Below, piece by piece: positions 26,805 to 30,984 of a DNA stretch of 64,000 nucleotides. The notes below the pieces were generated by a model. It was not told the origin of the DNA. It ran no database searches and was given only the letters and a program-made list of their open reading frames with translations. Source of the DNA: an uncultured bacterium (GTDB lineage: Bacteria; DRYD01); the NCBI GenBank assembly GCA_937139605.1, contig CAKZQG010000037.1, forward strand, positions 86,421-150,420, in the 5' to 3' direction. Within the stretch, counting starts at the first letter, position 1; each line of letters starts with the position of its first letter. The position numbers and the translations under genes are program-made.

Positions 26805-28403
26805 ATGTTATTAGTTAATTATATAAGTTTATATAGGAAATATCGACCATTAAAATTTAGTGAAGTTATTGGCCAAGATATTAGTATAAGAATATTAACT
26901 AATTCTATAGTAAGGGGAGAGATATTTCATGCTTATATATTCAATGGAACAAGGGGAACTGGGAAAACAACAGTAGCGAGGATTTTAGCTAGGGCTTTAA
27001 ATTGTTTAAACTTAAATGGATTTGAGCCGTGTAATGAATGTTATAATTGTAAAGCTATAATGAATTCTTCATTTCCTGATGTTATTGAGATAGATGCCGC
27101 TTCTAATAGGGGGATAAATGAAATAAGGGAAATAAGGGATAATGTTAAGCTTTCTCCTTTAAAAGGTAGATATAAAGTTTATATTATAGATGAAGTACAT
27201 ATGCTAACAATAGAGGCTTTCAATGCGTTATTAAAGACTCTGGAGGAGCCTCCTAAAAATGTTGTTTTTATTTTAGCTACTACTGATATTCATAAAGTCC
27301 CTATTACTATTTTATCAAGATGCCAGCAAATAGAATTTAAAAGAGTAGATTATATCTTAATTTTTAATCATTTAAAAAATATTTGCCAAAAAGAAAATAT
27401 AATTATAGATGATGATGCTTTAATTTATATAGCTAAATTAGCTAAAGGCTCTGTTAGAGATTCTATTAGCATTTTAGAACAAATTAAGAATATTTCTGAG
27501 CATATTACTTTAAATGATATTTTTAAAGTATTTTCAATTTATTCTTTTGAATTAATTAAAAATTATATTTATTATGTTTTACTAAGTGATTTTAAAGAAG
27601 TTGTTAATATAATTAACCTAATAAGACTTAATGCTGTCAATATTTATAATTTTTTATATAACTTAAATATGGAATTAAAGGAAATTATTTATTATTATTT
27701 TAATCCTGATATTATTCAAGAAAACTTAACTCAAGAACAAATCAAATTTTATAAGTTTATAATAAATAATTTTGATATAAAATTAGTTTATGAGTTATTA
27801 AAAAGTTTAAATTCGGTATTAAATTTTTATAAAAATGAAAATGATTATTATCTTTTTGAGATTCAAACAATATCTTTTATTTTTAGTTTAAATAAGTATC
27901 TAAAAGATTCTAAAGATAAAATAGAAAATATTAAAGCAGAAAATATTAAGGAAATAGATAAAAATGTAATTAATTTAAAGGTAAGTGATGAAATAAGACA
28001 ATCTCAAGAATTAATTAAAATTCAAGAAACAATTAATTTTAATGAAAAAATTAAATCCCAGGAATTAAATAAAGATGATTATAAAAATGATAATGAAGTT
28101 AATATAGATAATGATGAAAATAAAAACAATGAAGAAAAAGCTAAAATAGAAATAGATATAAAGAATAATATATTAAACTTAATATCTGACAAGCATCTTT
28201 ATAATGCAATCAAAGCTGCTGATAAAGTTATTCTTAATAATGATACTTTAATTTTTTATTATGATAGTTCTAAAAAAATTAACCAAACTTATAAATATTT
28301 AATAAAAATTTCCAAAGAAAAGATAAGAAACTATCTTAGAAGTAAATATAATATTAATGATATAATTTTTGAAGAAGAAATTAAAAAAAAAACTTTAATA
28401 TAG
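26805..28403 (+). CDS. dnaX: DNA polymerase III gamma/tau subunit, zero-frame product
   Basis: The clamp-loader ATPase motifs are present: Walker A in FNGTRGTGKTTVARIL, a zinc-binding Cys set (ALNCL...EPCNECYNCKA), Walker B in VYIIDEVHML and the SRC motif in TILSRCQQIEF. Domain III and a charged, Asn, Glu and Lys rich C-terminal region follow. The zero frame ends at TAG (28401) right after a run of ten A. A -1 shift in that run gives about 53 more residues ending at TGA 28562-28564 (see next entry). The start ATG has GGGGG about 10 bases upstream. Confidence 0.95.
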   Translation: MLLVNYISLYRKYRPLKFSEVIGQDISIRILTNSIVRGEIFHAYIFNGTRGTGKTTVARILARALNCLNLNGFEPCNECYNCKAIMNSSFPDVIEIDAASNRGINEIREIRDNVKLSPLKGRYKVYIIDEVHMLTIEAFNALLKTLEEPPKNVVFILATTDIHKVPITILSRCQQIEFKRVDYILIFNHLKNICQKENIIIDDDALIYIAKLAKGSVRDSISILEQIKNISEHITLNDIFKVFSIYSFELIKNYIYYVLLSDFKEVVNIINLIRLNAVNIYNFLYNLNMELKEIIYYYFNPDIIQENLTQEQIKFYKFIINNFDIKLVYELLKSLNSVLNFYKNENDYYLFEIQTISFIFSLNKYLKDSKDKIENIKAENIKEIDKNVINLKVSDEIRQSQELIKIQETINFNEKIKSQELNKDDYKNDNEVNIDNDENKNNEEKAKIEIDIKNNILNLISDKHLYNAIKAADKVILNNDTLIFYYDSSKKINQTYKYLIKISKEKIRNYLRSKYNINDIIFEEEIKKKTLI

Positions 28404-28564
28404 ATAATCAAGAATTTATAAAAGAAGAAATATTTTCTAAAGAATCTTTAGGAAATGAATTTAATAGTGATATTCTTAAAAGTGATATTATGGATAAAAA
28501 AAAGTTATTTATAAAGGATTTTGATAGTTTTGTAGAATTTGTAAGAAGGGAGTTAGAGTTATGA
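28383..28564 (+). other. dnaX: A10 slippage site and -1 frame extension of dnaX
   Basis: Ten A at 28383-28392 lie in the last codons of dnaX. A -1 shift there leads into an open frame reading NFNIDNQEFIKEEIFSKES and ending FVEFVRRELEL at TGA 28562-28564. That TGA overlaps the ATG of the next gene (ATGA at 28561-28564), the same coupling seen for coaD-dxs. The extension keeps the coding style of dnaX. It is either produced by slippage or represents one missing A in the assembly. Confidence 0.65.
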
Positions 28565-30984
28565 GAATTATTTTTTATAATTTAAAGATTTTTTTTATAT
28601 TATTTTTTATTTTTATTATATTAAATATAGTTTTATTAATAAATGTTTGGGCTATAAGTGATAAGGAAATGGAATCTAAAAGTGAGTATGAGCTTTATAA
28701 TATTGCAGCTGAATATTTTCAAAAAAAGAATGATCAAGAAGCTTTTAAAGTAGTAAAGTATCTTTTGGAAAATAAAAACCCAAGAAATAAACAAGCTTTA
28801 TATATTTTAATAGAGATTTTAATAAGGAATATTAATAATTTTCCCCAATATAAAAGGAAAGATATATATTATCAGATAATTGAGAAATCTAATTGGATAA
28901 CTGATAATATTGATTATTATGATTATAAAGCTTATTATTATAAAGGATGGGCATTTTATAATTTAGGTGATTTAGCTACTGCTGAAAGAAATTTTAAAAG
29001 AGCACTTGAAAATTACGCTAACTATTTGCCTGCATTGTATTATTTATCTAAAATTTACTTAGATAGAAATGATTTAGAAAATGCTCAAAAAACTATTGAA
29101 AAAATTTTAAATATAGAACCATATAATATTGATTTTAGAAAATTATATTTTGAATTATTGATTAAACAAAATAAGTTAGATGATGCGCTTTCTTATTTTA
29201 ATTCTTACCTTAAAAACTTAAACGATGAGAAAATTTTTTATTTAATTTCGTTAGTTTATTATAATAAGTCAGAGTTTAAAAATGCACTTGATTATATTGA
29301 TAAAGCTTTGAATTTTAATAATAATAATTCTGATTATCTTAAATTAAAAGTTAAAATATTATTTAAAATAAAGGATTATAAAAAAACAGAAGAAATTATT
29401 AATAACTATTTTAAAGATACTAATGATGAGGAAATTAAGAATATATATAATAATATCCAAGCAATAAAGGCGCAAAGAATTTATATTATATTTGTTGTTT
29501 TGCTGGGTTTATTAGTTGTAGGTATAGCAGGTTATTTTATTTCTAGGAGTTATAAAGAAAATATGTATAAAAAATATTTACAAGCTCAAAAGAGCAGCTA
29601 CATAGAGAAAGTTTCAAAGAAAGCAGAGAATCTAGAGATTTTAGTAGGTTTTGCTTATGATTTTCTCTCTAAGTTTCTTGAAACTACTAAAATTGCTATT
29701 TATATTGTTGATAGTAAACGAGATAATGCTTTATATAAATATATTAATAAAATTTCAAGAGATTTGGATTCTATTGAGATAATTTATGTTTATACAAAGT
29801 ATTCTAGTTGGCTAGCTGAAGGAGCTAATAAGCCATTTTCTATTTACCAGGTTCAAGAAGATCAAATAATGTATGAGTATTTTGGTGGTAAAAATATTAT
29901 TAATTTTAAAAAGGAAGGAGTTAGAGTAATTATACCTGCAGTATCTAGGGGAATTTTACAAGCTTTAGTTTTGATTGGAGCTTTAAAGGATGAAGAAGAG
30001 TTATTTAAAGTTATTAAGGACAAAAAAGAATTATTAAGTGATATAATAGAAGAGTTTGCAAATGATGTTATGTCTACTAGATTTAAGGAAGCTGCTATCC
30101 TTGATGAATTAACGAGACTTTATAATAGAAGATATATGCTTCAAAAATTAGAAGAAGAAATAAGCAAAGCTAATCAATCTAAATCTAAATTATCTTTTAT
30201 TTTATGTGATATAGATAATTTTAAAAAATTTAATGATACATATGGGCATCAAGTAGGAGATGAAGTTTTAAGGGTAGTAGCAAAGGTTTTTAAAGAAGCT
30301 TCTAGAGCTGATTTTGATATTCCTTTTAGATATGGAGGTGAAGAAATAGGTTTAATACTTCCTAATACTGATTCTGAAAAGGCTTTTGAAGTAGCTGAAA
30401 GAATTAGGAATTTGGTTTCCTCTAAGAGATTTGAAGGAGTACCTACTATTATCACTATTTCTATTGGTTTATCTACATACCCTGATCATGGGCTTGATCC
30501 AGAAACTCTAATAAAAGAAGCTGACGAAGCTTTGTATTATTCAAAGAAAACAGGGAAAAATAAAACTACTATCGCTGGAGTTAAAGTTTTATTAAATGAA
30601 TCAGAATCAGATAAGATTGATGATAAAAAATTAACTAGTTTTGCTAATGACGGTGGATCTAAGGATAAAAAAGATAAAGAATTATCTAAGGAATTTAAAT
30701 TACCTTCTTTTTGTTATTCTTACGAAGATTTTATTTCTTATTATAATAATTTGAAAACTAATATTTCTAATATTAAGTTAGTTTCAATAAAGACTGATAT
30801 TGATAATTATGAAAAAATATTGTATGATTTACATTTTAATTTATTATTAACTGAAAGTATTACTGCTAAACTTATAGATAATAATGAAGTTGAAATAAAA
30901 TTATTATTAGTTGATAGATCTGAAAATGAAGTACAAGATTTAATTTCAGGTATTGAAAATAGATTTAAAGTTAAAATTAGCTAA
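28561..30984 (+). CDS. Membrane TPR-GAF-GGDEF diguanylate cyclase
   Basis: The 807-residue protein starts with a signal or anchor, then tetratricopeptide-like repeats (about 75-250; KGWAFYNLGDLATAERNFKRAL is typical), a membrane span (about 307-328), and a GAF-like region (about 360-505). A GGDEF domain follows (about 518-680): DELTRLYNRRYMLQKL, LCDIDNFKKFNDTYGHQVGDEVL and RYGGEEIGLIL, where GGEEI is an active-type signature. A C-terminal extension of about 110 residues is unlike known parts. It would make cyclic-di-GMP in response to periplasmic input. Ribosome binding site AAGGGAG lies in the dnaX extension. Confidence 0.9.
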   Translation: MRIIFYNLKIFFILFFIFIILNIVLLINVWAISDKEMESKSEYELYNIAAEYFQKKNDQEAFKVVKYLLENKNPRNKQALYILIEILIRNINNFPQYKRKDIYYQIIEKSNWITDNIDYYDYKAYYYKGWAFYNLGDLATAERNFKRALENYANYLPALYYLSKIYLDRNDLENAQKTIEKILNIEPYNIDFRKLYFELLIKQNKLDDALSYFNSYLKNLNDEKIFYLISLVYYNKSEFKNALDYIDKALNFNNNNSDYLKLKVKILFKIKDYKKTEEIINNYFKDTNDEEIKNIYNNIQAIKAQRIYIIFVVLLGLLVVGIAGYFISRSYKENMYKKYLQAQKSSYIEKVSKKAENLEILVGFAYDFLSKFLETTKIAIYIVDSKRDNALYKYINKISRDLDSIEIIYVYTKYSSWLAEGANKPFSIYQVQEDQIMYEYFGGKNIINFKKEGVRVIIPAVSRGILQALVLIGALKDEEELFKVIKDKKELLSDIIEEFANDVMSTRFKEAAILDELTRLYNRRYMLQKLEEEISKANQSKSKLSFILCDIDNFKKFNDTYGHQVGDEVLRVVAKVFKEASRADFDIPFRYGGEEIGLILPNTDSEKAFEVAERIRNLVSSKRFEGVPTIITISIGLSTYPDHGLDPETLIKEADEALYYSKKTGKNKTTIAGVKVLLNESESDKIDDKKLTSFANDGGSKDKKDKELSKEFKLPSFCYSYEDFISYYNNLKTNISNIKLVSIKTDIDNYEKILYDLHFNLLLTESITAKLIDNNEVEIKLLLVDRSENEVQDLISGIENRFKVKIS

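Follow-up and report, generated by a model that had tools for sequence, protein, structure and literature searches.

A late A10 run in dnaX and other off-frame A/T runs as probable sites of RNA polymerase slippage in an uncultured bacterium

Two-ORF dnaX genes, in which recoding makes the longer subunit, were described by Antonov et al. 2013 (PMC3711429), who reported 17 of them, nine with 10 As and the others with A7 to A9, and proposed a transcriptional mechanism. In Thermus thermophilus, dnaX undergoes transcriptional slippage at A9 (PMC1088944, PMC5009743), and Thermus, where the slippage takes place at transcription, has two tRNA-Lys (PMC5009743). A run threshold of nine has been seen in many bacterial genomes and tied to transcriptional slippage (Baranov et al. 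2005, PMC1088944). Eight genes of Blochmannia vafer are broken at poly(A/T) tracts; dnaX, whose poly(A) frameshift lies in the tau region, is one of them and is shared with B. floridanus (PMC3017870). Rescue of Blochmannia and Buchnera genes by slippage at such tracts is described in that paper, citing Tamas et al. 2008. That a shift at A10 can be required for the long dnaX product has been known since 2013, and multigene rescue is known in insect endosymbionts. The original prediction for the locus analyzed here had regarded a lengthening dnaX shift as new, but such shifts were already on record in the genes of Antonov et al. 2013 (PMC3711429) and in Blochmannia dnaX (PMC3017870).

The dnaX gene of our window (the whole stretch of 64,000 nucleotides that was analyzed) resembles the two-ORF genes of Antonov et al. 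in that the zero frame stops just past the poly(A) run and the -1 frame encodes the remainder. It differs from them in that the tail alone is lost rather than the whole tau-specific region, and in that it belongs to a different lineage, in which five other genes share the feature. As in Thermus, a long A run lies late in the gene, slippage by RNA polymerase is probable, and the genome has two tRNA-Lys (anticodons TTT and CTT); however, the zero frame of Thermus dnaX encodes the long product and slippage shortens it, whereas here the zero frame stops at 28401-28403. The programmed ribosomal frameshift of Escherichia coli dnaX likewise uses an A-rich -1 site that gives two DnaX forms (the second form is predicted in our case), but its signals, namely, A_AAA_AAG, a Shine-Dalgarno-like element, and a stable stem-loop, are absent here, where the site reads AAA AAA AAA ACT, and the E. 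coli shift shortens the product while the shift considered here lengthens it. In common with Blochmannia and Buchnera, several genes including dnaX are broken at A/T runs, the break is shared between species, and there is no decay; unlike in those organisms, the genome (a draft of ~1.9 Mb) does not appear strongly reduced, and coding sequences actively avoid runs of at least nine. The locus can be placed with the multigene poly(A/T) frameshift type, since six genes are broken at A/T runs of at least nine, common to both species of the genus compared here and otherwise intact. What it adds to the known cases is the extreme C-terminal position of the break and a conserved six-gene set in a genome of ordinary size.

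Two more dnaX genes of the reverse type (L021 and L108, of 392 and 382 codons) were seen among 109 ORFs in this work. Both end just past an A9 run at the classical gamma position, and their -1 frames stay open for a further 166 and 108 codons, respectively.

The dnaX A10 run and its two frames

The phase of the A10 run is such that nine of its As are read as KKK, after which the zero frame continues to KKKTLI and ends at TAG three codons past the run (Table 1). The -1 frame contains no stop between the run and a TGA (28562-28564) that overlaps the ATG of the next gene (28561-28563) as ATGA, and the coaD and dxs genes of the window overlap in the same manner. The frames, the run, and the overlap had been read correctly in the original prediction, and the comparisons below support its proposal that a longer DnaX can be made only by shifting to -1 at A10 or from an mRNA with an additional A there. 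The size of 53 residues given for the extension needs correction: one base added at A10 would give a DnaX of 586 aa versus 532 aa for the zero frame, with 57 residues that are absent from the zero-frame product and a net gain of 54. The break falls at codon 527 of 586 and removes the tail alone; the zero-frame protein still has its AAA+ domain and lid and the greater part of the C-terminal region. An independent small gene of 24 codons, beginning with the ATG at 28490, was considered and rejected, as it has no recognizable ribosome-binding site.

Judged from the window genome alone (G000, with the window on its contig C37), the -1 tail is a weak case: in 14 of 1,524 genes the -1 frame stays open beyond the stop for at least 50 codons and lacks an early start codon. 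Genomes for comparison came from the same genus (G001), the family (four), and the order (one). The dnaX of G001 has ~75% protein identity to that of G000 and carries A10 at the matching place, with different flanking bases; its zero frame stops after KKKMTI, and its -1 frame runs on to FIRDFEGFIEFIKRELEL and the same ATGA. The case stands above chance because the run recurs in this congener at the same length, together with the break, a similar tail, and the ATGA. The two-ORF arrangement is conserved in G001 and absent from the sister genus: the three genomes of that genus that have dnaX, like the order-level relative, lack such a run and encode dnaX as a single ORF. The in-frame tail of these relatives aligns with the -1 tail of G000, in an alignment that is short and suggestive rather than strong, and adding the 57 residues gained only a few bits against a general DnaX profile. 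A scan of genome contigs returned only distant DnaX.

Between G000 and G001, dN/dS in dnaX is 0.19 before the break and 0.64 after it (38 codons). Because of the latter value, we regard the linker after the break as loose, and purifying selection on the tail is less clear than in the five other genes described below. Of 15 substitutions in the last 22 codons, 7 fall at third positions, and part of the conservation of the tail may come from the ribosome-binding site of the next gene.

Table 1. Positions of the features discussed. Coordinates without a genome label are those of the window; G000 is the window genome and G001 its congener.
Feature	Position	Strand	Remarks
dnaX zero-frame ORF	26805..28403	+	532 aa, TAG 28401-28403; NCBIfam NF004046, E=3e-133
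A10 run, putative slippage site	28383..28392	+	Equal length in G001 (L010 3082-3091)
dnaX -1 frame extension	28391..28564	+	57 residues, NFNIDNQEF...FVEFVRRELEL, and TGA
dnaX C-terminal tail LFIKDFDSFVEFVRRELEL	28505..28561	+	Aligns with in-frame DnaX C terminus of sister genus and order-level relative; suggestive, short
ATGA overlap, extension stop and next start	28561..28564	+	Kept in G001, absent from sister genus
TPR-GGDEF protein gene, next after dnaX	28561..30984	+	807 aa
cca, tRNA nucleotidyltransferase	G000 C4:65873-65882 (L279 5873-5882); L350		A10; off frame in both species
recF	G000 C11:60514 (L355 1502-1511, L356 895-904)		T10; off frame in both species
GT2 glycosyltransferase	G000 C4	-	T10; off frame in both species
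334-aa membrane protein	G000 C6:108533-108541		T9; off frame in both species
Polysaccharide flippase	G000 C2:1895		T9; off frame in both species
tilS, tRNA-Ile lysidine synthetase	G000 C43:61990-61998 (L337 1990-1998)		T9; off frame in G000
-1 breaks away from long runs	G000 C6 51519-52277 plus; C6, C7, C17, C44 minus; C11 62135-62773		
Dispersed element copies	G000 C9:1242, C24:32692, C28:36847, C28:39278, C33:1467, C35:2692, C40:1041, C2 minus		

Other genes broken at long A/T runs

The slippage-type break is not specific to dnaX, and the other genes that carry it had been missed. Approximately the whole of G000 was read (1.8795 Mb; the draft is 1.88 Mb, 88.5% complete, and 24% GC), each homopolymer of at least 6 being checked for a frame change, and a frame-break census that ignored homopolymers and a relaxed scan of runs of at least nine were added. 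Six genes besides dnaX were found off frame at runs of 9 or 10 (Table 1), and all seven breaks require the -1 frame. When cca, recF, and tilS are read across the break, a family match is obtained on both sides of the run; the 334-aa membrane protein had no match in Pfam or NCBIfam. The cca, recF, GT2, membrane protein, and flippase genes have their break in G001 at the corresponding run, which is equally long, and in the sister genus dnaX, cca, recF, GT2, and the membrane protein gene are intact single ORFs.

In the five genes other than dnaX that are broken in both species, purifying selection is the same on either side of the break. Between G000 and G001, dN/dS before and after the break is 0.24 and 0.19 in cca, 0.17 and 0.16 in recF, 0.33 and 0.19 in the GT2 gene, 0.33 and 0.26 in the membrane protein gene, and 0.25 and 0.24 in the flippase gene. 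Run length is kept in G001 at 6/6 off-frame runs versus 5/20 in-frame runs (Fisher p = 0.002), the in-frame set consisting of the 20 runs of 9 to 10 with a G001 counterpart; the off-frame runs had been chosen in G000 before G001 was inspected for them, with the exception of dnaX, which was given.

A number of other breaks were left outside the set. Approximately six further -1 breaks in G000 lie outside long runs, in an A7 pilin gene, a second pilin gene, an MFS transporter gene, LhgO (at T7), and two restriction genes; we read these as private errors or as decaying genes or pseudogenes because the A7 pilin and MFS genes are intact in G001. An A10 run on contig C24 with the opposite frame relation resembles a gene boundary and was excluded.

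Two further observations concern long A runs elsewhere in G000. At L141 (C39:15993-16004), a 195-codon ORF is closed by a TAA formed where an A10 run begins, and beyond this stop its frame goes on to encode a transmembrane segment; this break is an in-frame stop and not a frame shift. A dispersed intergenic element, TAATATTATTC-A(8-21)-TCCTCTTTTTT, has an A run whose length differs between copies.

RNA polymerase slippage and its alternatives

Long runs are directly seen to be scarce in the coding sequences of G000. Against expectations from synonymous-codon shuffling, there are 67 coding A9 runs where 144 were expected, 8 A10 runs where 41 were expected, and none of A11 or more where 23 were expected. 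A7 and A8 runs show no shortage, and T runs show a mild shortage at 7 to 8 and a strong one from 9. The threshold is the one that Baranov et al. 2005 (PMC1088944) linked to transcriptional slippage. Replication slippage may be a partial source of the shortage of long runs.

We consider it probable, from these genome comparisons, that the dnaX A10 is a slippage site kept in evolution and that RNA polymerase slips on A/T runs of nine or more, supplying the long DnaX and the other full-length proteins. Slippage would add one base (or lose two) in part of the transcripts. An mRNA with the encoded A10 would give the 532-aa DnaX, and one with 11 (or 8) As would give the 586-aa DnaX bearing the C-terminal tail that relatives encode in one frame, with a stop that would overlap the GGDEF start codon. 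Leaky decoding of this kind would also give full-length CCA-adding enzyme, RecF, glycosyltransferase, flippase, and membrane protein, and probably TilS by the same route. The event is most likely transcriptional, and we infer that both DnaX forms are made.

It is possible, but unlikely, that the ribosome rather than RNA polymerase shifts, with -1 frameshifting on A_AAA_AAA (T_TTT_TTT in the other genes) producing the long proteins from unaltered mRNA. The heptamer is in the right phase at each site, and the uniform -1 direction of the seven breaks fits a one-base insertion by RNA polymerase and -1 ribosomal slippage equally. However, the ~3000 coding runs of 7 to 8 hold the same ribosomal heptamers, and yet the shared breaks all lie at runs of 9 to 10, a limit that ribosomal slippage alone would not impose. 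The dnaX site also lacks AAG, no Shine-Dalgarno-like element stands upstream of the run in G000 or G001, and no significant structure was found downstream of it (fold z-scores of -0.52 and 1.12). Downstream RNA structure was rejected as a stimulator more generally, as nothing unusual appeared at the seven sites that were folded.

Undercalled runs in sequencing or assembly, with the true runs one base longer and the genes intact, would account for every break being one base short, and the -1 breaks off long runs imply that G000 does contain some private errors or pseudogenes, at least two of the genes concerned being intact in G001. Nevertheless, 6/6 run breaks are found again in a second species, where the runs have identical lengths and the flanking bases differ, dozens of A9 to A10 and T9 runs are read in frame, and runs of A11 to A26 are resolved elsewhere in the assembly. 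A miscalled A11 in dnaX, the alternative offered in the original prediction, is very unlikely, given that the second species has the identical A10 and that the two species share run breaks in five more genes, and we judge the wider explanation no more favorably.

Phase variation at the DNA level, in which run length differs among cells and the consensus caught the off state, would suit mutable homopolymers and a set that includes a glycosyltransferase and a flippase, typical genes of surface variation; however, 6/6 loci are off at the same length in both species and neither dnaX nor cca is a likely gene to be switched off, which makes it highly improbable. Equally improbable is a chance open frame with the 532-aa DnaX as the sole product, which the 14 comparable genes and the tail dN/dS of 0.64 would allow but which is opposed by the recurrence of the run, stop position, tail motif, and ATGA in G001 and by the similar in-frame tail in relatives.

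Consequences for DnaX and for decoding in the genus

In E. coli tau, the C-terminal part contacts the polymerase. By analogy, slippage at the dnaX run would decide whether DnaX has a polymerase-contacting tail and acts in a tau-like manner. Coupling of the GGDEF gene to dnaX may follow the shift because the shifted frame would carry ribosomes to the GGDEF start. A design for two products need not be involved; tolerance or dosage is as likely, because a truncated form would serve no obvious purpose in the case of the other five genes.

We tentatively hypothesize, while holding it to be somewhat less than an even prospect, that this genus, which would not be a reduced endosymbiont, relies on RNA polymerase slippage at A/T runs of 9 to 10 for core proteins (the long DnaX, CCA-adding enzyme, RecF, TilS, and others). 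Selection would then hold the runs one base off frame across species, and slippage would be a fixed part of decoding. The conserved breaks indicate that, in a lineage whose genome is of ordinary size, several core genes, among them genes of replication and tRNA processing, can remain off frame at homopolymers from one species to the next. Default annotation labels such genes pseudogenes or sequencing errors. The gene set is natural material for asking why an off-by-one run persists though a single insertion would repair it.
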